Shown one piece after another: positions 2,520-40,340 of a stretch of 64,000 nt of DNA. The position numbers and the translations under genes are program-made. The notes beneath the pieces were generated by a model. It saw nothing but the letters and a program-made list of their open reading frames with translations, had not been told where the DNA came from and searched no databases. The first letter of the stretch is position 1. The number at the start of each line of letters is the position of its first letter. The stretch comes from Rubripirellula reticaptiva (GTDB lineage Bacteria > Planctomycetota > Planctomycetia > Pirellulales > Pirellulaceae), in assembly GCF_007860175.1 (NCBI RefSeq), contig NZ_SJPX01000002.1, positions 248,001 through 312,000 of the forward strand, written 5' to 3'.

Positions 2520-2713
2520 CATTGGTATCTACCCAAGTCTGACGAATTCAATTCACCCTCCCTTGGGGTCGCGGAAGAGCTTGCGACGACGCGGGGAGGG
2601 GCGTCTGGCAAGATGGGCAGTATTCGTTCGTCGCGAATCCCCTCCCCGAAACCTCGTGCCTCGGCTTCGACCCTCCCCAAGGAGGGTGAAGAACACTTGC
2701 GTAGATACCAATG
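2520..2713 (+). mobile_element. copy of gene-less 214-bp element family (C), left end decayed
   Basis: Begins with CATTGGTATCTAC at 2520 and ends with GTAGATACCAATG at 2713, a 13-bp inverted terminal repeat. Inside are two ACCCTCCC-type stem-loops, one near each end, and a GACGACGCGGGGAGGGG segment. It is followed directly by CCCTTTGGG of a module A hairpin; the matching left copy is no longer clear. It has no coding capacity. Confidence 0.75.
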
Positions 2714-2900: not shown

Positions 2901-3096
2901 CATTGGTATCTACCCAAGTCTGACGAATTCAATTCACCCTCCCTTGGGAGGGTCGCGGAGGAGCTTGCGACGACGCGGGGAGGGGCGTCTGGCGAGATGG
3001 CAGTAATCGTTCGTCGCGAATCCCCTCCCCGAAACCTCGTACCTCGGCTCCGACCCTCCCCAAGGAGGGTGAAGAAAACTTACGTAGATACCAATC
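2901..3096 (+). mobile_element. copy of gene-less element family C inserted in a module A hairpin
   Basis: Starts CATTGGTATCTAC right after CCCTTTGGG (2892-2900) and ends GTAGATACCAATC just before CCCTTTGGC (3097-3105). The flanking nonamers are near-identical direct copies, as expected for a 9-bp target duplication with one later change. The element is about 196 bp; it lacks an 18-bp internal duplication seen in the 214-bp copies at 12252 and 40103. Confidence 0.8.
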
Positions 3097-3192
3097 CCCT
3101 TTGGCAGAGTCGAGCCGAAGCGAGGAGAGGGAAAATCCAGATCACTAGCACTTGCAATACTGATTCCGACTCTCCCAAGGGCACTGCTATCA

Positions 3193-3682: not shown

Positions 3683-4400
3683 CTGAGTAAGCCCCACCCG
3701 GCCGCTACCGCGTCCGACCTCCCCGCAGGGAGGTAAAGTTGGGAAGATTCCAAAGCCCGAAAATCTCGCAGTTTCAAGGTCAACGGGCATATCGATTTAC
3801 GATCATCACCTTCACTCTCCCTCCGCGAGAGTCGAGCCTAAGCGAGGAGAGCGTGTCCGCAATTGCAAGCCCCACCCGGCCGCTACTGCGTCCGACCTCC
3901 CCGCAGGGAGGTAAAGTTGAGAAGATACCAAAGCCTGAAAATCTCGTAGTTTCAAGGTCAACGGGCATATCGATTTTCGATCATCTCCTTCACTCTCCCT
4001 TTGGGAGAGTCGAGCCTAAGCGAGGAGAGCGTGTCCGCGAATGGAAGCCCCACCCGGCCGCTACTGCGTCCGACCTCCCCGCAGGGAGGTAAAAAGTTGG
4101 CAAGATTCCAAAGCCCGAAAATCTCGCAGTTTCAAGTTCAACGGGCATATCGATTTACGATCATCACCTTCACTCTCCCTTTGGGAGAGTCGAGCCTAAG
4201 CGAGGAGAGGGTGTCCGCGATTGGAAGCCCCACCCGGCCGCTACTGCGTCCGACCTCCCCGCAGGGAGGTAAAAGTTGGCAAGATTCCAAAGCCTGAAAA
4301 TCTCGCATTTTCAAGTTCAACAGGCATATCGATTTTCGATCATCACCTTCACTCTCCCTTTGGGAGAGTCGAGCCTAAGCGAGGAGAGGGCGTCCCCGAA
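3683..4400 (+). repeat. tandem array of A/B hairpin units, period 178-180 bp
   Basis: The motif CACTCTCC recurs at 3813, 3991, 4171 and 4350, giving periods of 178, 180 and 179 bp. Each unit holds a CTCTCCC-ttt-GGGAGAG stem-loop (A), GCCTAAGCGAGGAGAG, CCCCACCCGGCCGCTAC, an ACCTCCC-cgca-GGGAGGT stem-loop (B), and a tail with CAACGGGCATATCGATTT. Units differ by few substitutions. The array lies between the DUF559 gene and the TPR gene. The following stretch to 4536 is non-coding with no further repeat. Confidence 0.9.
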
Positions 4401-7251: not shown

Positions 7252-7640
7252 CCCCGTGGGCATTGGTATCTACCCAAGTCTGACGAATTCAATTCACCCT
7301 CCCTTGGGGAGGGTCGCGGAGGAGCTTGCGACGACGCGGGGAGGGGCGTCTCGCAAGACGGGCAGTATTCGTCCGTCGCGAACTCCCTCCCCGAAACCTC
7401 GTGCCTCGGCTCCGACCCTCCCCAAGGAGGGTGAAGAGTGCTTAGGTAGATACCAATGCCCTCCCAGAGGGCATCGGTATCTACCCAAGTCTGACGAATT
7501 CAATTCACACTCCCTTGGGGAGGGTCGCGGAGGAGCTTGCGACGACGCGGGGAGGGGCGTCTGGCAAGACGGGCAGTATTCGTCCGTCGAGAATCCCCTC
7601 CCCGCTCGTTCCTCGCGGCCCTCCCAGAGGGAGGATGAAA
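7252..7640 (+). repeat. two adjacent copies of element family C, the second truncated
   Basis: First copy 7261-7458 with both CATTGGTATCTAC ends; it follows CCCCGTGGG. The second begins CATCGGTATCTAC at 7472 and loses its right half near 7610-7640, where it runs into a CCCTCCCAGAGGGAGG hairpin. The 13 bases between the copies are CCCTCCCAGAGGG. From 7002 to 7250 and from 7641 to 7865 I see no gene and no repeat. Confidence 0.8.
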
Positions 7641-8110: not shown

Positions 8111-9124
8111 CTAGCGGGACGAAGCTTTGTCGTTACTCAACAATTGAATATCGTGATCAACCATTGATTTGACGATGCCATCGATGCCGGTCGTTGCTTT
8201 CCACCCCAAATCGGCATGGGCACGACTAGCATCGCCCACCAAATTTGTGACCTCAGCTGGGCGAATGAAGCGAGGATCAGCTTGATAGTGGTCGCGCCAG
8301 TTCAAACCGACTCTTTCAAAAGCACTCGAAAGGATATCTTCGACGCTGTGTGAGGTCCCGGTTGCCAATACATAGTCATTGGGTGAGTCTTGATCGAGCA
8401 TTCGCCACATTGCGTCGACATAGTCCGGTGCATATCCCCAATCGCGACGTGCATCGAGGCTGCCCATCCGTATCGTGTCTTCCAATCCCAACGAAATCGC
8501 GGCGGCAGCACGAGTAATTTTGCGGGTCACGAATGACTCGCCCCGACGTGGCGATTCGTGGTTATAGCAAATCGCATTGACCGCAAACAAACCGAACGAC
8601 TCGCGATACAACCGGGTCATTTGGGTCGCAAAGGCTTTGGCGACACCATACGGCGAAACGGGTCTCATCGCCGTATTCTCATTTTGTGGACCAGTCTCAG
8701 GCCTGCCAAATATTTCGCTACTGCTGATGTGCAACAATCGCGGCGACTTGGGTAAATCTCGCAAAATCTCAAGCAGCTTAAGCGTCCCCATCGCAGTGAA
8801 CTGACACGTCGATTCGGGGATTTCAAAACTAGCACCAACATGGCTTTGACCGGCCAGATGATAGACTTGATCTGGCGCCGTCTTATTCAATATCCGTCGA
8901 ATCGTCGTTACGTCATCCAAATCGGCGTAGTGCAAGAACAATCGCGAATTGTAAATGCTCTTATCATGAAAAATTGGATCCAAACGCAATCGCGAAATCG
9001 AACTACTACGACGAACCAATCCATGAACCGTGTACCCCTTTCGAAGCAGCAATTCCGTCAGATAAGAACCGTCCTGCCCTGTAATTCCAGTAATCAGTGC
9101 GGATGGCGAGTTCGATTCGGTCAT
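8111..9124 (-). CDS. gmd: GDP-mannose 4,6-dehydratase
   Basis: ATG at 9124, 337 residues, close to the usual Gmd length. It is an extended short-chain dehydrogenase/reductase: NADP-binding GITGQDG at residues 13-19, then GLVRRSSS, YADLDD, QVYHLAGQSHVG, the catalytic SSSE (134-137) with IFG, and YGVAK with Tyr159 and Lys163. Gmd converts GDP-D-mannose to GDP-4-keto-6-deoxy-D-mannose, the precursor of GDP-fucose, GDP-rhamnose and GDP-perosamine. No fucose synthase, Rmd or PerS gene is in this window, so the final sugar is open. The gene sits between an exosortase gene and a fragment of an exosortase tail, which suggests it entered as a cassette. The intervals 9125-9383 and 8087-8110 hold no gene. 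Confidence 0.92.
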   Translation of the reverse strand: MTESNSPSALITGITGQDGSYLTELLLRKGYTVHGLVRRSSSISRLRLDPIFHDKSIYNSRLFLHYADLDDVTTIRRILNKTAPDQVYHLAGQSHVGASFEIPESTCQFTAMGTLKLLEILRDLPKSPRLLHISSSEIFGRPETGPQNENTAMRPVSPYGVAKAFATQMTRLYRESFGLFAVNAICYNHESPRRGESFVTRKITRAAAAISLGLEDTIRMGSLDARRDWGYAPDYVDAMWRMLDQDSPNDYVLATGTSHSVEDILSSAFERVGLNWRDHYQADPRFIRPAEVTNLVGDASRAHADLGWKATTGIDGIVKSMVDHDIQLLSNDKASSR

Positions 9125-9383
9125 GATCTACAGGTGATTATTTTTGGGTTATTGCTTGACGCAAATGTGCGAAGTGGCCGTCAACGTTAAAGCGACGATT
9201 CTTGCCCAAACAAAGTTGTCAGGCTCGACAGCGGGCAGCATAGTCTTTGTCTGGCGTGGACACGGAAGTTTGCTTCAGCAAGCTGAGTTCGTCGAAAACA
9301 AACGATCCAACGTTCGTCGCCATAAAATCAGACACAAACAAACTCTGATTTCACCAGATGTTTAGACGCTAGATCCAGTCAGC

Positions 9384-11213
9384 TTACCGAGCAGCACCGG
9401 CCCAGCGGGGCCCATCAAGAAGTTCTTTACGAGCGGCAAAGAACAGGGCTTGCAGCGATGCGATCTGTTCGTCGGTGTAAGATCCCGAACGATCCGAATA
9501 GAGCTGGATCGTTGAGCCGGGAAGATTCGGCAGAATAGGCCCACCGAACCCGAACCGTCTGGAAACGCTATCGACTAGAATTTCGACCGCCTGAACTGGT
9601 TGAAGAAGACTCTCCCGCCAATCCAAGTCACGCATCTCACTGCGATTGCGGTCAACGACGGTAAACATTACGTACCCCGAACTACCATCTCTTTTTGACA
9701 TCGTTAATTCCGAGAAAGACAGGTTATTAAACGGAACATCGGTCGGTGATTCAACAAAGTAATCGGGCGAGGTTACCCAACCAACATTGACGTAGCAAAC
9801 ATTCAAATTGTGCCACTCGGCCCAGGGGCAATCGACGGAAAGAACCGCTCGAACACCGTCTCGCTGGAACCCCCAGGTGTACGAATCCGGAGCCTGCAGA
9901 CCATTCTTCACGCGTTCAACATGCTGAAAACCTGAACGAGACCATCCCGCTAAATCGGCGGGCAAATCGGTTTCAGTTGACGCCGCCAACCGCGGCATTT
10001 GATCCATCGAGACAATCCCTTGATCGGGATCGCGCATCGCTGCGAACCACCCCAGCCCAATGATCGGCAGCAGGAGTGCGCCAATGGCTATCAGAGCCTT
10101 GCGTGAAAGCCCCCCCAGCAATCCACCGGCCTGCTCCAAGCCGTCGTCGCCCATCGAGTCCGTGCCATGAAACCCTCGGGCGCGGGCGAGTCGCTCGGCA
10201 CGTGACTCTTTCATCTCGCCATCGGATCCCATCACTTCAGGACGCCGCAGCGACGGCAATCGCAATCCCGATCGTGCAACCATTTCACCCCCGTCTTCGA
10301 CGTGGATTTCATCATCCCCTTCATCGAACCAGGCTATGCCCAGCTGACGCTGACAGAACACGCCGACGATTTGATCGGTGCTGGCCACCATCCCCAAGAT
10401 GAACGCGAACACGACCATCGATAACATCTCGTGTCCGGCACCGCTGGCGTACCAAGGACTGACATTATCGGCCAGCACCACACAGGCAGCCACGCGGATG
10501 GCATTACCAATCAAGACCCAAAACACGGTCTGAACTAAATTGAAACACGTGCGAACCAGCCGGTGATGGGAAACCACCGCATAGACCGCCACCACCGCCA
10601 GTGACGAAAACAACGATCGCACGCCGCTGCATGCTTCCTCGGTCATGTACTGCGACTTTTCGGTAATCAACACGACGCCTTCGCGAAGGTGACGAATCCC
10701 GGCACCATCCAATAGCAAACTGGCAAGCTGACTCGCGAAGAACTGCATCTTGAAGATCAGCGTGTCGTCGTAGTTCATCGGCAAGGGAATTGCCAGCAAC
10801 CACAGCGCCAACACCGGGGCCATCACCCACAATCCGCCCGAACCGACAAGTCCGTACGTAAGTACGCACGATGCCAGCGCCGTCGCCACGATGCCGACCC
10901 AAGGACTGTTCAGCAAATGGGCCGCTAACACCAGCACCACAATCACCCCGGCCCCGGTCATCAAGACGGATGTCCGAGGCCACGTGGCGGCTTCGACCGC
11001 CGCCGGCCAGCGCATCTTGGCCAGCACGCCAATCATCAAAATCAACAGCGGAAAGTACTGGTAATGCCCATCCCGCCAGGTCCAGGTGAAATACGTCCAC
11101 CACAGCGGCGCAAACGCCAGCAAGGTCAAAGCAACCAATCCCCAAACCGCCGGTCTAATCGTCGTCGCGTCCAGCCGAGGTGAAGCGTCGGCCATTGGTG
11201 AGTTTTCAGTCAT
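9384..11213 (-). CDS. xrtU: exosortase (planctomycete XrtU-like) fused to EpsI-like domain
   Basis: ATG at 11213, 609 residues. Residues about 20-290 form a polytopic membrane domain with about eight hydrophobic segments and the exosortase catalytic residues: Cys195 in EEACSGVRS, Arg240 in NAIRVA and His261 in GAGHEML. A charged linker of about 90 residues follows, then another membrane segment near residue 375 and a periplasmic EpsI/DUF3485-like domain (GWSRSGFQHVERV, WAEWHNLNVCYVNVGW) to the end. Exosortases recognise and cut the PEP-CTERM tail in a sortase-like reaction at the inner membrane. It is adjacent to EPS genes, as is usual for these enzymes. The XrtU label is by recall of the planctomycete type. 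A gene-start fragment and a tail fragment of it occur nearby (11752-11832, 7866-8086). Confidence 0.9.
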   Translation of the reverse strand: MTENSPMADASPRLDATTIRPAVWGLVALTLLAFAPLWWTYFTWTWRDGHYQYFPLLILMIGVLAKMRWPAAVEAATWPRTSVLMTGAGVIVVLVLAAHLLNSPWVGIVATALASCVLTYGLVGSGGLWVMAPVLALWLLAIPLPMNYDDTLIFKMQFFASQLASLLLDGAGIRHLREGVVLITEKSQYMTEEACSGVRSLFSSLAVVAVYAVVSHHRLVRTCFNLVQTVFWVLIGNAIRVAACVVLADNVSPWYASGAGHEMLSMVVFAFILGMVASTDQIVGVFCQRQLGIAWFDEGDDEIHVEDGGEMVARSGLRLPSLRRPEVMGSDGEMKESRAERLARARGFHGTDSMGDDGLEQAGGLLGGLSRKALIAIGALLLPIIGLGWFAAMRDPDQGIVSMDQMPRLAASTETDLPADLAGWSRSGFQHVERVKNGLQAPDSYTWGFQRDGVRAVLSVDCPWAEWHNLNVCYVNVGWVTSPDYFVESPTDVPFNNLSFSELTMSKRDGSSGYVMFTVVDRNRSEMRDLDWRESLLQPVQAVEILVDSVSRRFGFGGPILPNLPGSTIQLYSDRSGSYTDEQIASLQALFFAARKELLDGPRWAGAAR

Positions 11214-11472
11214 GGCGAGGGAGTAGGTGTTAGGCGACAGGTTTTAGGGAACAGGTTCCTGGGAACAGGCGCAGCGGCGGGAAAGTTTTTTTGGGCAGGG
11301 AGGCCGGATGGGGCCAGCTTACGGCAAAGACGTGCTGATTTCCAACCGCCGGGCATCGGTAAATGCGTATTGGACGTCGATCCTGACGTCACTTCAATAT
11401 CGATTCACCCCAGGTGGCCCACTTCACGCCCATAGTCATCAAATGAAGACCATTTGCCCTGGGTCCACTGAA

Positions 11473-11552
11473 ATTAGTGTTTGATTAGCGAAGATGAGTG
11501 TTCCCAAAATGCTACCAACTGGAACACTCATCGTGTCTAATCGCACACTAAT
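11473..11552. repeat. 80-bp hairpin (family D), first copy
   Basis: ATTAGTGT-tt-GATTAG...GTGTTCC pairs with GGAACAC...CTAATC-gc-ACACTAAT around a 16-base loop. The right arm has a few mismatches (TCGTGT in place of TCTTCGC), so this copy has begun to decay. Confidence 0.8.
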
Positions 11553-11614
11553 TCCATCGCGTCCCCTTAACCTGATGCGGATCGCCTATTCACCCCTCCA
11601 TTTCACGTGCGCTA

Positions 11615-11720
11615 ACATCACTCTCCCTCCGGGAGAGTCGAGCGTCAGCGAGGAGAGGGCATCCGCGCATCAAAGCCCCACCCGGCCGCTACAGCGTCCG
11701 ACCTCCCCGCAGGGAGGTGA
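11615..11720 (+). repeat. A/B hairpin repeat with uninterrupted module A
   Basis: Contains CTCTCCCTCCGGGAGAG at 11621-11637, CGTCAGCGAGGAGAGGG, CCCCACCCGGCCGCTAC and the module B stem CCTCCC-CGCA-GGGAGG. Here the nonamer CCCTCCGGG is single (11625-11633). This is the empty counterpart of the filled site at 12243-12474. Confidence 0.9.
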
Positions 11721-11751
11721 ATTAGGTAGTTGCCAAGCAACACCGAAAAAC

Positions 11752-11832
11752 CTACACGCCCTTCTTCCGCAAGCAAGCAAGCGACGCGACCGGCCGAGGT
11801 GAAGCGTCGGCCAATGGTGAATTTTCAGTCAT
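11752..11832 (-). pseudogene. 5' fragment of the exosortase gene
   Basis: On the minus strand an ATG at 11832 starts MTENSPLADASPR, almost the same as the first 13 codons of the intact exosortase, then diverges to a TAG at 11752 after 26 codons. It is a by-product of the 620-bp tandem duplication, whose junction truncated the second copy. It is unlikely to be functional. Confidence 0.8.
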
Positions 11833-12090
11833 GGCGAGGGAGTAGGTGTTAGGCGACAGGTTTTAGGGAACAGGTTCCTGGGAACAGGCGCAGCGGCGGG
11901 AAAGTTTTTCCGGCAGGGAGGCCGGATGGGGCCAGCTTACGGCAAAGACGTGCTGATTTCCGACCGTCGGGCATCGGTGCATCCGTATTGGACGTTGATC
12001 CTGACGTCACTTCAATATCGATTCACCCCAGGTGGCCCAATTCACGCCCATAGGCATCAAATGAAGACCATTTGCCCTCGGTCCACTGAA

Positions 12091-12170
12091 ATTAGTGTTT
12101 GATTAGCGAAGATGAGTGTTCCCAAAATGCTACCAACTGGAACACTCATCTTCGCTAATCGCACACTAAT
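12091..12170. repeat. 80-bp near-perfect hairpin (family D), second copy
   Basis: ATTAGTGT-tt, then a 22-base arm GATTAGCGAAGATGAGTG plus TTCC, a 16-base loop, and the exact complement ending CTTCGCTAATC, then gc-ACACTAAT. The stem is 22 bp plus 8 bp without mismatch in the arms. Related hairpins are at 35505-35586 and 35778-35859. Confidence 0.9.
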
Positions 12171-12251
12171 TCCATCACCTCTCTTCGACTTGATGCGGAT
12201 CGCCTATTCACCCCTCCATTTCACGTGCGCTAACTTCACTCTCCCTCCGGG

Positions 12252-12465
12252 TATTGGTATCTATACAAATCTGACCAATTCAATTCACCCTCCCTTGGGA
12301 GGGTCGCGGAGGAGCTTGCGACGACGCGGGGAGGGGCGTCTGGCAGGATGGGCTGTATTCGTCGGTCGCGAATCCCCTCCCCGAAACTTTCCTCTCCCCG
12401 AAAGCTAATGCCTCGGCTTCGACCCTCCCCAAGGAGGGTGAAGAAAACTTGTGTAGATACCAATG
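12252..12465 (+). mobile_element. 214-bp gene-less insertion element (family C) with 9-bp target duplication
   Basis: Left end TATTGGTATCTATAC, right end GTGTAGATACCAATG, imperfect inverted repeats. It is flanked by exact direct copies of CCCTCCGGG (12243-12251 and 12466-12474), while the paralogous site at 11625-11633 has a single copy. Internal stem-loops ACCCTCCC-tt-GGGAGGGT and ACCCTCCCC-AAGGAGGGT lie near each end. It encodes no protein, so a transposase would have to act in trans; none is in the window. It behaves like a MITE. Confidence 0.85.
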
Positions 12466-12670
12466 CCCTCCGGGAGAGTCGAGCGTCAGCGAGGAGAGGG
12501 CATCCGCGCATCAAAGCCCCACCCGGCCGCTACAGCGTCCGACCTCCCCGCAGGGAGGTGAATTGAGCAGTTGCCAAGCAACACCGAAAAACCTACACGT
12601 CCTTCTTCCGCAAGCGGGCGACGCGAAAACGCCATTTTTAAAAACTAGCGGCGGTCTCCCCGACCGACCG

Positions 12671-15244
12671 CTAGACGTCGTCCGCAGGTGATGTTGGTGG
12701 CGCAACAACAGCAGCCTTGCGAATCTGTTGCGCCTTCTTCCGATCCTTGCCTTTTTTCTTATCGTCTTCTTCGTAATAGGAATTGTTTTCGCGATAGCCG
12801 TACGAATAACCGTACGAGTATCCGTACCCATACTGATAGGACGAACCGTAGTTGTAATTGCCTTCCGCTTCGCTGGACTTCCCGTACCCGCGAGCGGCTC
12901 GGCTGCCGACACCGTTGACGACGATCCCCAGCACGTTGGCGTCGAGCGTTTCCAACATCCGTGTCGCCTGAGCAACCGCTGGCTTGATGTTCTTGCGCAA
13001 TCGAACCACCAAAATCACACCATCCACACGCGACGCTAAGTTGGCCGGATCACTCACCGCCAGCAGCGGCGGCGTATCGACAATGATCATGTCGTATTGC
13101 TTGCGAAGCAAATTCAGCAACCGATCGAAGTTCGGTGACGACAACAATTCCGATGGGTTGTCCGGCCGTTCGCCGGCCGTCATCACCGACAAGTTCGCCA
13201 CCACCGACCGTGTGATCGCCGCCTGAATCCGGTCATCCAAACCCGCCGCATCCGCTTCGCACTGCTCAATCGCCCAAGCGGTTCCCTTGTCATTTTCAAT
13301 GCCCATGACCTTGCCCACGCGAGGCCGTCGCAGGTCACCGTCCATCAACAGCACCCGGCGGCCGGATTGAGCGATCGCAACGGCGACGTTGGCGGCAATG
13401 GTCGACTTGCCGTCCGACGGTGTCGAGCTGGTCATTTGCAACACTTGGTTGTTGCCGGATTGATTGCTGAAGTAGATCGCCGTCCGAATCGCCCGAAACG
13501 CTTCGGCCTTTTGCCCCTTACCACTAAAGAACGTGACCAACCGCGAATCCAGATGTTCGCCCACCTCACCGGGTTCGACCTTGTGTGGTTTCAGAACCGG
13601 CACATGCCCAATGATCGGCAACCGAGTGTGTTCGGCAATGTCACGAGCACTGTGGTAGGACCGATCCGACATTTCCCGCAGCAAGGCCAACCCAAAGGCA
13701 AGCATGCCGCCCAGCAGCCCACCCAAAATCAACGACTTCGGCATCGATGGCGCAAACTGGTAGCCCAGCTTGGCGGTATTGAGCGGGAAGACTTTCAAGC
13801 CATCGCCGCCCGACATCAAATTGACTTCGTCCAAGCGAGCGACAATGCGATCATAGAGTTGTTGTTGCCGATCAATTTCACGAACAAACTGTGCCGATCG
13901 AATTTCACTATCACTTTCGGCGCGAGCCTGAGTCATTTCAGCTTCGTAGGCGTCGGAAACCACCGTCAGTTCCGAATCGAGAGCGTCCATTTCTTGACGA
14001 AGCGCCCCGACGGCAAATCGCACTTGTTCCATCGCCCGATTTCGCGGCTCAAGATCCTCATCTGGGTTTTGAAAACTAGACGCCTCGGCCGCGGCGGCCT
14101 TCATCGCTTCATCCAGTTCGGCGTTGAGCCGTTTCTCGTTTTCCTCAACTTTTTCGATCGTCTTTTCAATCAGCGCAATTCGTTTGTTGATCGTGTCGAT
14201 CGCCGGGTGATCGCGACCGACCGTATCCACCAGCGATTCGCGTTCCAGTTGAAGCGGTAACAGGCTTTCCTGCCGCATCCGTTCGCCAGCGTTCAACAAC
14301 GGCTTGCTGCGGATCTTTTCAAGTTCCCATTTTTGTTCCGGCGACATCGACCGTGTGAAGTCGGCGGCCGCATCGTCCGTCGCCTGAAAGCTACTATTAA
14401 GCGCCATCAAGATCGCTTCGTAGGGCTGTTCCTCTTCCATCGCCTTGCGAGTGGAGGACAGCAAAGACGAAAGCTTGGCCTTTTGAATCAGCAGATCTTG
14501 CCGCTGAGCCATGAAACGATCCGCATTGTCACGGTGGATGCTGGTCGTATCGTTGCCGCGATAAATCAGTCCGGAAGACTTCTTGAAGTCACTGAACTCA
14601 CCTTCAAGCGTATCCAGCTTTGCCAGGACGTCATTTCGAGCCGTCTGAATCAAATCGATGGTTTCTTGCCCCACGTTGCGGAACTGCTCTTTCAAATGAC
14701 TCGCATAGGCATCCGTAACCGCCTGAACGACCCGCTGCGATGTCGATGGCGAAGTACTATTGAACTGAATCTGAAACACACTCGAGCCGATCGAGCTACC
14801 GGCCGATCCAATCGATAGGCTCGCATCGCCAATTGCCGCAGCAATCTGCTCGGGCGCCATGCCAGCAAATTCCGGAGCCGTGGAAAGCTCGCCAAGCTCG
14901 GCGGCACGGCGCAAAATTTGCTCGCTGCGCATGACGATCGCTTCGTCACCTAAATTTCGCCCCTTTAGGCCCGTATCAAGCCCGTCAACCGGCAGGTTTC
15001 GGGCCAAGGATTCAACGATCTGGACCTGAGCCGCCGAGCGGTACATTGCCGGTTGACGCGTGAAGTGAAAATATCCAACCGCGAGTCCGATCAGCGTCCC
15101 AAGCGCAAGCAAGTATCGAGCATTCCAAGCCACTTTGGCATAGTCCAAATGACCGCCACCCACGGGCGACGCAGCCATTTCTCGACCGCGTCTATCCGCC
15201 AAGTCAGGAGAACGCGTCTCGTCTTGCGATTGCATTTGATTCAT
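12671..15244 (-). CDS. wzc: Wzc-like polysaccharide co-polymerase with BY-kinase domain
   Basis: ATG at 15244 (857 residues); a GTG two codons earlier is possible. An N-terminal Wzz domain begins with a membrane segment (YLLALGTLIGLAVGYF, residues about 45-62), followed by a large periplasmic coiled-coil-rich part and a second membrane segment near residue 500 (ILGGLLGGMLAFGLALL). The cytoplasmic kinase has Walker A STPSDGKST (about 607-615), Walker A' LLMDGDLRRP (about 631-640) and Walker B MIIVDTPP (about 718-725). A tyrosine-rich cluster with over a dozen Tyr follows at about 790-825, then a basic tail. BY-kinases autophosphorylate in such clusters and control chain length and export of capsule or EPS. 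It is the last glycan-export gene before the exosortase region. Confidence 0.92.
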   Translation of the reverse strand: MNQMQSQDETRSPDLADRRGREMAASPVGGGHLDYAKVAWNARYLLALGTLIGLAVGYFHFTRQPAMYRSAAQVQIVESLARNLPVDGLDTGLKGRNLGDEAIVMRSEQILRRAAELGELSTAPEFAGMAPEQIAAAIGDASLSIGSAGSSIGSSVFQIQFNSTSPSTSQRVVQAVTDAYASHLKEQFRNVGQETIDLIQTARNDVLAKLDTLEGEFSDFKKSSGLIYRGNDTTSIHRDNADRFMAQRQDLLIQKAKLSSLLSSTRKAMEEEQPYEAILMALNSSFQATDDAAADFTRSMSPEQKWELEKIRSKPLLNAGERMRQESLLPLQLERESLVDTVGRDHPAIDTINKRIALIEKTIEKVEENEKRLNAELDEAMKAAAAEASSFQNPDEDLEPRNRAMEQVRFAVGALRQEMDALDSELTVVSDAYEAEMTQARAESDSEIRSAQFVREIDRQQQLYDRIVARLDEVNLMSGGDGLKVFPLNTAKLGYQFAPSMPKSLILGGLLGGMLAFGLALLREMSDRSYHSARDIAEHTRLPIIGHVPVLKPHKVEPGEVGEHLDSRLVTFFSGKGQKAEAFRAIRTAIYFSNQSGNNQVLQMTSSTPSDGKSTIAANVAVAIAQSGRRVLLMDGDLRRPRVGKVMGIENDKGTAWAIEQCEADAAGLDDRIQAAITRSVVANLSVMTAGERPDNPSELLSSPNFDRLLNLLRKQYDMIIVDTPPLLAVSDPANLASRVDGVILVVRLRKNIKPAVAQATRMLETLDANVLGIVVNGVGSRAARGYGKSSEAEGNYNYGSSYQYGYGYSYGYSYGYRENNSYYEEDDKKKGKDRKKAQQIRKAAVVAPPTSPADDV

Positions 15245-15450
15245 GTGCACGGGAGAAGTGTCTTCATTGAGCGATTTGGTGACAGTGACGCACCTAAGCG
15301 ATTGGACGTCTGTTCAGCCAAAGCGTCTAGATTATCACAAATTTATTGAAATCAGAAAAAGAGTGAGGCAAAGAAACGGAAAAAATCTCTTCTCAACCGG
15401 AAAAACGAACCCAAAGCGAAAAACGCCACCTTTCGCCTAGTTTCTTATCC

Positions 15451-32149: not shown

Positions 32150-32330
32150 AGGTAACAGGTGGCGTTAATAGGCGACAGGTGGCGTCAGTAGGTAACAGGT
32201 GACAGGTGACAGGCAACAGGCAACAGGCAACAGGCAACAGGCAACAGGCAACAGGCAACAGGTAACAGGTGACAGGTGACAGGTGACAGGTAACAGGTTT
32301 TGCCTGTGACCTGTGACCTGATTGCTATGA
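32150..32330. repeat. heptanucleotide array, CAACAGG / TGACAGG type (family E)
   Basis: About 20 imperfect 7-bp units with core ACAGG (GTAACAG, TGACAGG, and a run of CAACAGG at 32214-32262), followed by CTGTGACCTGTGACCTGATT, which is complementary to the array, so the whole can fold back. Similar arrays lie at 33121, 34195, 34931, 37205, 11226 and 11844. Confidence 0.9.
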
Positions 32331-33235: not shown

Positions 33236-33590
33236 AGTTTTACTTCTCCCCTTTTCAGGAGAACCTGAGCGTCAGTGAGGGGAAGATGACAGCACCGGGC
33301 CCTCTCCTCGCTTAGGCTCGATTCTCCCAGAGGGAGAGTGAAGTTAACGCTTTTGAAACAACTAATCTTCACCCGCCTTGGGGAGGGTCGGAGCCGAGGT
33401 ACGAGGTTTCGGGAAGGGGATTCGCGACGGACCAATACTCCCATCTTGCCAGATAACCCTCCCCGCGTCGTCGCAAGCTCCTCCGCGACCCTCCCAAAAA
33501 AGGGTGAATTGAATTCGTCAGACTTGGGTAGATACCAATGCCCAGAGGGAGAGTGAAGTTAACGCTTGTGAAACAATGACTTAAAAACTG
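33236..33590 (-). repeat. A repeat plus truncated family C element, minus orientation
   Basis: A module A hairpin (TCTCCCAGAGGGAGA) at about 33321-33338 is followed by a family C element in reverse orientation, 33368 to 33540, that keeps the GTAGATACCAATG end but lacks the other. Next to the intact end is CCCAGAGGGAGAG again and GTGAAGTTAACGCTT, present on both sides. No gene in this interval. Confidence 0.85.
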
Positions 33591-33599
33591 CATGACCTC

Positions 33600-34187
33600 C
33601 TAGCCGTCGGGGTCATTGATGAGTTGTTGCAGTCGGTCGGCGTGGAGGGGGGGGAGCTTTTCCAGCCAGGTTTCGTCGATGAGGCCGACGCTGAGCATGT
33701 CTCGCAGGTGCATTCGATCTTTATCCCGGTACGAATTCAGCTTCATCGTCAGGAGCGCTGGGAGGCTGACGATGTCGTAGTCGTCGGCGGGCTCGATTTC
33801 GGTGACGTCGGCGGAGGGGAGGATGTATTCGGGGCGGACTTTTTCAGCGGCATAGAGCAGATGAACCGCGTCACTGGGACTGCCGTTGGGGCCATCGATG
33901 AAACAATCGACGCCCATGACTTGGTGGTAATGGAAGCCGACCGATTCGAGGGCAAGCTGGATGCGGCCAAAGTCGGCTCGGCGGACCAGGATGTCTACAT
34001 CGCGGGTGTTTCGCACGGCGGCTTCATCGATCCGGGCGACCCATGCGGCGACGGCGTTGCCACCGGCAATACCGTGGGGGACTCCTGCTTCTCGAAGTGC
34101 TTTGGTGGCTCGAAGGGCTCTTTCACGAACGGCTTCCACGGCGCTGATCATCCTTTCCCAGGAAAACGGCTTGAGCTCAGTGGGCAT
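33600..34187 (-). CDS. nucleotidyltransferase-fold protein
   Basis: ATG at 34187, 195 residues. HGIAGGNAVAAWVARIDEAA followed by RNTRDVDILVRRADF is the GG...W / T-x-D-x-D motif of the nucleotidyltransferase superfamily. LPALLTMKLNSYRDKDRMHLRDML is a helix common in AbiEii-like and minimal nucleotidyltransferases. It has no obvious partner. It is related in fold, not closely in sequence, to the protein encoded at 32344. Both lie inside the EPS transcription unit between wzm and the NusG-like gene, where a role in glycan synthesis is not evident; they may be insertions carried by the flanking repeats. Confidence 0.75.
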   Translation of the reverse strand: MPTELKPFSWERMISAVEAVRERALRATKALREAGVPHGIAGGNAVAAWVARIDEAAVRNTRDVDILVRRADFGRIQLALESVGFHYHQVMGVDCFIDGPNGSPSDAVHLLYAAEKVRPEYILPSADVTEIEPADDYDIVSLPALLTMKLNSYRDKDRMHLRDMLSVGLIDETWLEKLPPLHADRLQQLINDPDG

Positions 34188-34194
34188 TTATGTA

Positions 34195-34305
34195 GGTGAT
34201 AGGAATTAGGTGACAGGAATTAGGTGACAGGTGACAGGGTTTAGGGTTTAGGGTTTAGGGTTTTCCTGCTTGCTGTGACCTAAAACCTGTTACCTGTTAC
34301 CTATT
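34195..34305. repeat. ACAGG array with telomere-like GGGTTTA run (family E)
   Basis: Units AGGAATTAGGTGACAG then GTTTAGG repeated three to four times (34236-34262), then GCTGTGACCTAAAACCTGTT, complementary to the array. It separates the NusG-like gene from the nucleotidyltransferase gene. Confidence 0.8.
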
Positions 34306-37204: not shown

Positions 37205-37255
37205 TAAGAGGGGACAGGCGACAGGGGACAGGCGACAGGGGACAGGGGACAGGAA
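37205..37255. repeat. short ACAGG array (family E)
   Basis: Units GACAGGC, GACAGGG, GACAGGG and similar, directly upstream of the LptF/G start. It generates the spurious CPLSPVACPLSPVP N-terminus of the longer frame. Confidence 0.85.
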
Positions 37256-37373: not shown

Positions 37374-37940
37374 GTAGCGGACGCCCTCTCCTCGCTGACG
37401 CTCGACTCTCCCGGAGGGAGAGTGAAGTTGGCGTAAGTGAAATAGCGGCTTGAAAACTGCACGATTTTCGGGCTTGGGGACCTGCCCATCTTCACCTCCC
37501 TGCGGGGAGGTCGGACGCGGTAGCGGCCGGGTGGGGATTGCATGCACGGACGCCCTCTCCTCGCTGTCGCTCGACTCTCCCGGAGGGAGAGTGAAGTTGG
37601 CGTAAGTGAAATAGCGGCTTGAAAACTGCACGATTTTCGGGCTTGGGGACCTGCCCATCTTCAACTCCCTGCGGGGAGGTCGGACGCGGGAGCGGCCGGG
37701 TGGGGATTGCATGCGCGGACGCCCTCTCCTCGCTGTCGCTCGACTCTCCCGGAGGGAGAGTGAAGTTGGCGTAAGTGAAATCGCGGCTTGAAAACTGCAC
37801 AATTTTCGGGCTCGGGGACGTGCCCATCTTCACCTCCCTGCGGGGAGGTCGGACGCGGAAGCGGCCGGGTGGGGATTGCATGCGCGGACGCCCTCTCCTC
37901 GCTGTCGCTCGACTCTCCCGGAGGGAGAGTGAAGGTGGTG
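37374..37940 (-). repeat. tandem array of A/B hairpin units, period 169 bp
   Basis: ACGCCCTCTC or its equivalent recurs at 37381, 37550, 37719 and 37888, a constant period of 169. Each unit has CTCTCCCGGAGGGAGAG (module A) and CCTCCC-TGCGGGGAGG (module B) and GGCCGGGTGGGGATTGCATG. Units are nearly identical, so the array is young or homogenised. The orientation is opposite to the array at 3683-4400. The stretch 37941-38142 holds no gene. Confidence 0.92.
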
Positions 37941-39984: not shown

Positions 39985-40340
39985 GGCTCTGAAATCTTCC
40001 CATCTTTCACCTCCCTGCGGGGAGGTCGGACGCGGTCGCGGCCGGGTGGGGATTCAACGCGCAGACGCCCTCTCCTCGCTGACGCTCGACTCTCCCGGAG
40101 GGCATTGGTATCGACACAAGTTTTCTTCACCCTCCTTGGGGAGGGTCGAAGCCGAGGCATTAGCTTTCGGGGAGAGGAAAGTTTCGGGGCGGGGATTCGC
40201 GACCGACGAATACTGCCCATCTTGCCAGACGCCCCTCCCCGCGTCGTCGCAAGCTCCTCCGCGACCCTCCCAAGGGAGGGTGAATTGAATTCGAAAGATT
40301 TGGGTAGATACCAATGCCCGGAGGAAGAGTGAAAGTGACA
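39985..40340 (-). repeat. A/B hairpin repeat with inserted family C element, minus orientation
   Basis: Module B (CACCTCCCTGCGGGGAGG) and module A (GACTCTCCCGGAGGG) surround a family C element at 40103-40316. It lies between the ends of two convergent genes, where hairpins could stop transcription from both sides. Confidence 0.9.
40103..40316 (-). mobile_element. 214-bp family C element with near-perfect 9-bp target duplication
   Basis: CATTGGTATCGACAC at the left and GGTAGATACCAATG at the right. Flanks are CCCGGAGGG (40094-40102) and CCCGGAGGA (40317-40325). It is the same length as the copy at 12252-12465 and shares its 18-bp internal duplication (CTTTCGGGGAGAGGAAAG), so these two are close relatives. 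Confidence 0.85.

Follow-up and report, generated by a model that had tools for sequence, protein, structure and literature searches.

A 214-bp non-coding element of Rubripirellula reticaptiva with the ends and the hairpin-centred target of a Tn5-like insertion sequence group

Symmetric targets of 9 bp are classical for Tn5 and Tn10, and for IS231/MIC231 both non-autonomous derivatives and a GGG-N5-CCC target are known. IS1397 is a member of the IS3 family. The IS4 family is defined by a catalytic triad of the form D(60-110)D(100-150)E and by the motif Y(2)R(3)E(6)K (PMC2266710). ISRm22 has most of its copies in clusters of REP sequences, and recombination hybrids were proposed for some of them; Tn5 target sites are likewise described as working best in clusters of similar sequences (PMC1525189). 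A 2015 study of triplex-forming repeats in E. coli reports, in the sections used here, no transposase or integrase remnants around them (PMC4666352). Here we describe a short element that is very probably a MITE of a Tn5-like group of the IS4 family, and the target of this group is centred on a repeated hairpin.

The window, that is, the whole 64,000-nucleotide stretch of DNA that was analysed, contains a 214-bp segment whose coordinates in the original prediction were borne out (Table 1). The inverted ends are longer than the 13 bp or so that had been claimed, since they extend over about 19 bp with 16 of 19 positions matching. Exact direct copies of CCCTCCGGG flank the segment as described, and the tandem paralogue predicted to be empty carries one uninterrupted CCCTCCGGG at 11625-11633 and lacks the element. 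When the element is left out, the two paralogues align with 364 of 385 positions identical and one gap. Two further copies, at 2901-3096 and 40103-40316, show the same arrangement with one mismatch in each duplication, in agreement with the earlier description. Coding sequence is absent from the 214-bp element; the expectation of a non-coding element therefore holds. Its interior is not featureless and consists of two inverted hairpin repeats. The whole element folds as a single long hairpin (-104.7 kcal/mol, z = -7.1, with none of 200 shuffles as good). The search that yielded the matches to the interior modules was positive in 6 of 60 genomes, the own genome included. The element resembles two host-type repeats set between transposon ends. 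It is short and non-coding, with terminal inverted repeats, a target duplication and nine copies, and its ends are common to 18 full-length end pairs, none of them in the own genome.

Table 1. Features of the element, its copies and related hairpins in the window
Feature	Position	Strand	Details
Copy	2520..2713	+	Left flank unrecognisable; right flank CCCTTTGGG
Copy	2901..3096	+	Duplication CCCTTTGGG (2892-2900) / CCCTTTGGC (3097-3105)
Tandem array, 178-bp units	3689..4399	.	Three empty hairpins with the TTT loop duplicated at 2901-3096
Copy	7261..7458	+	Two flanks mismatch each other
Copy, right end lost	7472..7604	+	Left flank CCCAGAGGG; CCCAGAGGGAGG beyond lost end
Empty hairpin CTCTCCC-TCC-GGGAGAG, tandem paralogue	11621..11637	+	
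Left copy of 9-bp target duplication CCCTCCGGG	12243..12251	+	
Very probable MITE copy with perfect 9-bp duplication, 214 bp, non-coding	12252..12465	+	
Left inverted end TATTGGTATCTATACAAAT	12252..12270	+	16/19 match to right end
Interior hairpin module 1	12282..12335	+	98% identity over 54 bp to a G001 repeat without ends
Interior hairpin module 2 plus end	12390..12465	-	Module-plus-end at four places in relative G012 (81-84%)
Right inverted end CATTGGTATCTACACAAGT (as read on the minus strand)	12447..12465	-	
Right copy of 9-bp target duplication CCCTCCGGG	12466..12474	+	
Truncated copy, left end lost	33358..33540	-	Next to an intact, empty hairpin from the same repeat unit
Tandem array, 169-bp units	37377..37938	.	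Four empty hairpins with the GGA loop duplicated at 40103-40316
Copy	40103..40316	-	Duplication CCCGGAGGG (40094-40102) / CCCGGAGGA (40317-40325)

The ends are found well beyond this genome. An exact match to the 16-bp end CATTGGTRTCTACACA was obtained 209 times, spread over 29 of the 241 family genomes, whereas the reversed pattern does not occur, and in 24 of the 241 genomes a hairpin is directly followed by the end. A 17-bp end with up to two mismatches matched 15 of 22 genus genomes; many of these matches are due to chance, because the reversed control also gave single matches in 5 genomes. Hairpin-associated ends were seen in the genus genomes G012, G014 and G021. A longer hairpin-plus-end pattern, searched in one genome per species (84,980 species), gave 55 stretches, of which 51 stand under planctomycete titles, three belong to Acinetobacter guillouiae and one to a MAG labelled Proteobacteria. 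A phage origin was considered and rejected: the hairpin-plus-end pattern gave 12 viral-contig stretches, which all lacked a partner end as well as the continuation CTACACA and were taken as chance matches. Single-linkage clustering of the small elements from all genomes gives 14 clusters, pointing to several independent MITE families. Seven genomes (G231, G232, G233, G234, G236, G215 and G102) have many ends and no transposase at E <= 1e-20.

A full-length insertion sequence with the same ends and 9-bp duplications, which the original prediction had proposed to look for, was found in relatives. Among 74 distinct end pairs, some of them at loci retrieved by a search pattern that included the target, 18 are 1361-1375 bp long. 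Seven of these have a perfect 9-bp and two a perfect 8-bp duplication (for example CCCTCTGGG in L130 from Rhodopirellula sp. SM50, CCCAGAGGG in L083, CCCAAAGGG in L079 and CCCGTTGGG in L139 from Acinetobacter); the other nine are without a perfect duplication, and two of these differ at one of nine bases. Two full-length elements are from Acinetobacter guillouiae. The full-length elements examined, with these ends, this target and this duplication length, carry a DDE/YREK transposase. The four examples have one long frame each (403-440 codons), with an additional 132-codon frame on the other strand of L130. Pfam DDE_Tnp_1 matches all four, above the cut-off in three and 0.1 bit below it in L130, and NCBIfam IS4_3 is the best family for all four, yet below its cut-off in each. 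The transposase of L130 has the triad D82-D176-E317, with spacers of 93 and 140, and the YREK motif at 310. This catalytic spacing, the YREK motif and the single long frame of the four examples are those of the IS4 family, and the 8-9 bp duplications in 9 of the 18 pairs have the length of about one helix turn that is typical of it.

In sequence and in fold comparison alike, the best PDB match of the transposase is that of Tn5. A profile of four transposases reached the Tn5 transposase at E = 1.7e-10 and a profile of 27 at 3e-9; a single-sequence PDB search found nothing, so among sequence searches Tn5 was reached by profiles only. An AlphaFold2 model (mean pLDDT 78.8) had the Tn5 transposase, one entry being an inhibitor form, as its six best fold matches in the PDB (best E = 3.3e-14, TM-score about 0.5-0.6). 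A protein search gave 3965 homologues at E <= 1e-10 among 8000 candidates scored. The best of the 120 homologues listed is an IS4 family transposase from Rhodopirellula sp. SM50, and several of these 120 carry PF14706, the Tn5 DNA-binding domain. At E <= 1e-20 the transposase is present in 15 of 241 family genomes and in none of the genus. At E <= 1e-3, G021 is the sole positive among 22 genus genomes, with two weak matches of 22-23% identity. The claim that no transposase lies near the element is correct, and the enzyme was undetected on any contig of the own genome with the group transposase, the four-sequence profile or PF14706.

In the gammaproteobacterium Acinetobacter guillouiae, the sequence NZ_KB849283 (L139, L147 and L127) combines these ends with the hairpin target, and its transposase is 36% identical to its planctomycete counterpart. 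In G164, contigs C1, C2, C112, C147 and C158 carry an amplified related insertion sequence with a 43% identical transposase, and some copies contain stops. In an insertion sequence on an Aeromonas media plasmid (L316) the left end has diverged and a duplication is not visible, and an inverted-repeat scan did not recognise the ends of L314 and L315.

The target was characterised on 113 distinct ends with at least 14 bp of flank among the matches listed, out of 209, fetched by the end alone; duplicates were dropped and most contig-edge ends were left out. The preferred target is the hairpin CCTCCC-N3-GGG, which is hit at the loop: 33 ends lie at an exact CCC-N2-4-GGG and 28 at a one-mismatch version. 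Against this count 52 ends that lie at neither; 19 of the 113 come from G164. With those 19 set aside, the remaining 94 ends have the consensus ACCCTCCC-N3-GGG directly before the element. The pairs -1/-9, -2/-8 and -3/-7 are all complementary in 36 of these 94, as opposed to 2.8% of shuffles. A stem of 3 bp can be closed at a register of 8-11 in 51 of them, compared with 6.7% of shuffles. The G164 element has other target sequences; most are palindromes with the insertion at their centre (GCTTCATGC, GGTGAACC), and one, GGTCCCTCC, is non-palindromic. Judged by eye, L280, a relative at a greater distance, likewise sits at the centre of a palindrome. Three of 15 perfect duplications (L170, L209 and L193) lack a clear palindrome, as does the Acinetobacter plasmid copy L317 with a 9-bp duplication identified by eye, and these cases count against a palindromic target. 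In 39 CCC..GGG-flanked pairs, an exact 7-nt mirror third strand is present in 11 and one with up to one mismatch in 21, compared with 0.8% and 14.5% of shuffles.

Across the family, 85 of 241 genomes contain the hairpin CYCTCCC-N3-GGGAGRG, namely 24 of 29 with ends and 61 of 212 without; the reversed pattern gives one or two matches only, in a minority of genomes. The association between hairpin and end has a Fisher p of 3e-8, not corrected for kinship, and kinship does contribute to it, because within the genus the CTCTCCC hairpin is found in only 6 of 22 genomes, mainly the own genome (23), G014 (9) and G001 (5). Five of the 29 genomes with ends are without the hairpin, which counts against the MITE reading with its hairpin target. 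The hairpin is not made by the element, since genomes such as G160, where 299 hairpins are present and the end was not found, have hairpins without ends.

What the transposase recognises at these sites can be read in two ways. We lean slightly towards a target that is a symmetrical duplex motif, two half-sites with one per transposase subunit, in place of a hairpin or triplex structure. This would leave the element and its mechanism the same, so it is compatible with the MITE reading, and it accords with the consensus CCC-N3-GGG, its variable loop and 9-bp spacing, with the few perfect duplications that are non-palindromic, and with the likeness to Tn5/Tn10-type hotspots and their 9-bp symmetric targets. 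The G164 sites weigh against it, as the arm sequence differs (GGC-TTCAT-GCC, GGT-GA-ACC) while the central position is kept, and so do the few duplications of 8 and 10 bp where the loop is not 3 nt. The competing reading is that a Tn5-like lineage reads the extruded hairpin (or a transient triplex) itself and gauges where to cut by the ends of the stem, in which case the duplication would vary with the loop. Such an enzyme would be usable on any host hairpin repeat, in Planctomycetota and Acinetobacter alike, and some MITEs would be built from like hairpin repeats and so carry new target-like hairpins. We consider this second reading rather unlikely. It is possible that duplication length strictly follows loop length; the asymmetric L141 site has a 10-bp duplication and a 5-nt loop.

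The own genome (G000, 7.85 Mb in 13 contigs) has nine copies by DNA search, more than the three originally described and 86-96% identical in pairs, and three further weak matches are inverted ends of these copies. Eight copies lie within 41 kb (C2:247566 to C2:288316), one of them 0.4 kb left of the window, and the ninth is at C6:5974. One duplication is a perfect 9-bp repeat, two match at 8/9, the C6 copy, with a hairpin loop of 2 nt, matches at 7/8 over 8 bp, and one matches at 6/8; the remaining four copies are truncated, chimeric or have lost a flank. In the three best copies (9 or 8/9 bases), the duplicated loops TCC, TTT and GGA are those of empty hairpins in the region, at 11.6 kb, 3.7-4.4 kb and 37.4-37.9 kb, respectively. 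The two tandem arrays have perfect target hairpins at unit spacing, and element copies were not found inside them. Segmental duplication is visible in the region, and the 42 kb with eight of the nine elements also contain 9 of the 23 perfect CTCTCCC hairpins of the genome. At 33320-33600 a complete empty hairpin unit is followed by the truncated element and then by the same flank again, a layout that suggests a deletion between neighbouring units. Arrays of 7-bp and 14-bp units (AGGTAAC, TAGGTGACAGGAAT, AGGGTTT, AGGGGAC) are found at 32190-32298, 34193-34263 and 37209-37253. Amid the elements, positions 8111-15250 encode an exosortase (EpsH domain), a GDP-mannose dehydratase and a large protein with a ParA/AAA_31 domain, probably an exopolysaccharide locus.

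The duplications were evaluated against crossed flanks, each made of the left flank of one element and the right flank of another. With a looser definition of the end, 15 of 78 pairs show a perfect duplication 7 bp or longer (ten of 9 bp, four of 8 bp and one of 10 bp), as opposed to 0.95% of crossed flanks; part of the set was retrieved by a pattern that included the target, which is equally true of the control. In the 74-pair set, exact 9-mers occur in 10 pairs against 0.78%, and 9-mers with up to one mismatch in 20 against 3.5%. The excess is not due to the common CCC..GGG, because the control uses the same flanks, although a formal p value would be too optimistic since copies are related. 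The 63 of 78 pairs without a perfect duplication of at least 7 bp count against the MITE reading; they are assumed to be hybrid copies that would have arisen by recombination between repeats, and some copies may have spread by recombination.

Recombination is also the basis of a further alternative, in which the segment is part of a REP/BIME-type repeat spread by recombination or gene conversion among hairpin arrays, and the duplication is simply two neighbouring hairpins. The clustering of eight of nine copies in 41 kb, the tandem arrays and segmental duplication, the five of nine copies without a clean duplication, and an interior that is itself a hairpin repeat are all in keeping with this; however, one of the paralogues lacks the element and has just one hairpin, hairpins occur without ends in 61 of 212 family genomes, one with 299 copies, and the full-length insertion sequences, which have these ends and this target, already largely refute it. 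It is very improbable. That the empty sites are deletions between the two nonamers and not ancestral sites is the least credible explanation: the 9-bp direct repeat would permit slippage, but empty hairpins stand in regional tandem arrays and in 61 of 212 family genomes without a found end.

The reading of the element as a MITE, with 9-bp duplications in the hairpin loop as originally proposed, is supported by the full-length insertion sequences that share its ends, duplication length and target. The 214-bp element has the ends of this group, no coding sequence and a 9-bp duplication centred on the loop of a repeated hairpin. A transposase dimer would have bound both ends, excised the element and chosen the hairpin repeat. 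The two 3' ends would attack opposite strands about 9 bp apart, symmetrically about the loop, and gap repair would turn CCC-loop-GGG into a direct duplication. The transposase may have acted in trans and since been lost from the own genome, where it is undetected; this negative result counts against the MITE reading. The interior, two inverted host hairpin repeats, could have been captured as the deletion derivative formed. The 41-kb clustering probably reflects partly the clustering of targets in tandem arrays and partly segmental duplication.

These findings give an orphan MITE an identifiable family of autonomous relatives and describe Tn5-like elements whose target is a symmetric hairpin. 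Tn5 transposase is very well studied, and a relative of it can now serve to test how DDE transposases locate palindromic repeats. Mobile elements also acquire a concrete link to potential triplex-forming repeats. The element, or a Tn5-like insertion sequence in planctomycete hairpins, was not found in the titles and abstract starts that the literature searches covered, and the insertion sequence may already have a name.

The closest known systems differ from the element in distinct ways. With the IS50/Tn5 subgroup, the group shares a DDE/YREK transposase in one main frame, and its full-length members of 1361-1375 bp with duplications mostly of 8-9 bp are also like that subgroup as outlined in PMC2266710. 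The right end of the element agrees with all seven fixed positions (C1, W2, Y9, C13, A14, A16 and W19) of the subgroup pattern CW------Y---CA-A--W- in Table 1 of that paper. In contrast, the element ends start with 5'-CA, whereas IS10 and IS50 systematically have 5'-NT according to the same source; the target of the group is a hairpin repeat, and its profile match to Tn5 stops near Tn5 residue 370. IS231 and MIC231 are also IS4-family elements, but IS231 makes duplications of 10-12 bp (PMC2266710, Table 1), and the element deviates from the IS231 end pattern at positions 11 and 15. IS1397, which the original prediction named as a precedent, shares with other REP-targeting insertion sequences the insertion into palindromic repeats (PMC1525189). 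This likeness stands; by lineage the element is tied to IS4/Tn5 and not to IS1397. ISPpu9/10 differ by belonging to the IS110 family, with 2-bp duplications as far as the source describes them. Many targets appear to be laid out like the PIT/BoxC repeats, as a pyrimidine-purine hairpin followed by a mirror purine strand, but where the E. coli consensus has a second loop of 3 nt (PMC4666352), theirs is much longer. ISRm22 of Sinorhizobium meliloti belongs to the same family, has all its copies in REP sequences and has some copies with imperfect, apparently recombined duplications (PMC1525189). It differs in its 6-bp duplications (PMC1525189) and its subgroup, IS4Sa (PMC2266710), and the sections of PMC1525189 used here mention no MITE form. 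Insertion of IS4-family elements into REPs is already known from ISRm22; the Tn5-like group described here adds a form in which insertion centres on a hairpin.
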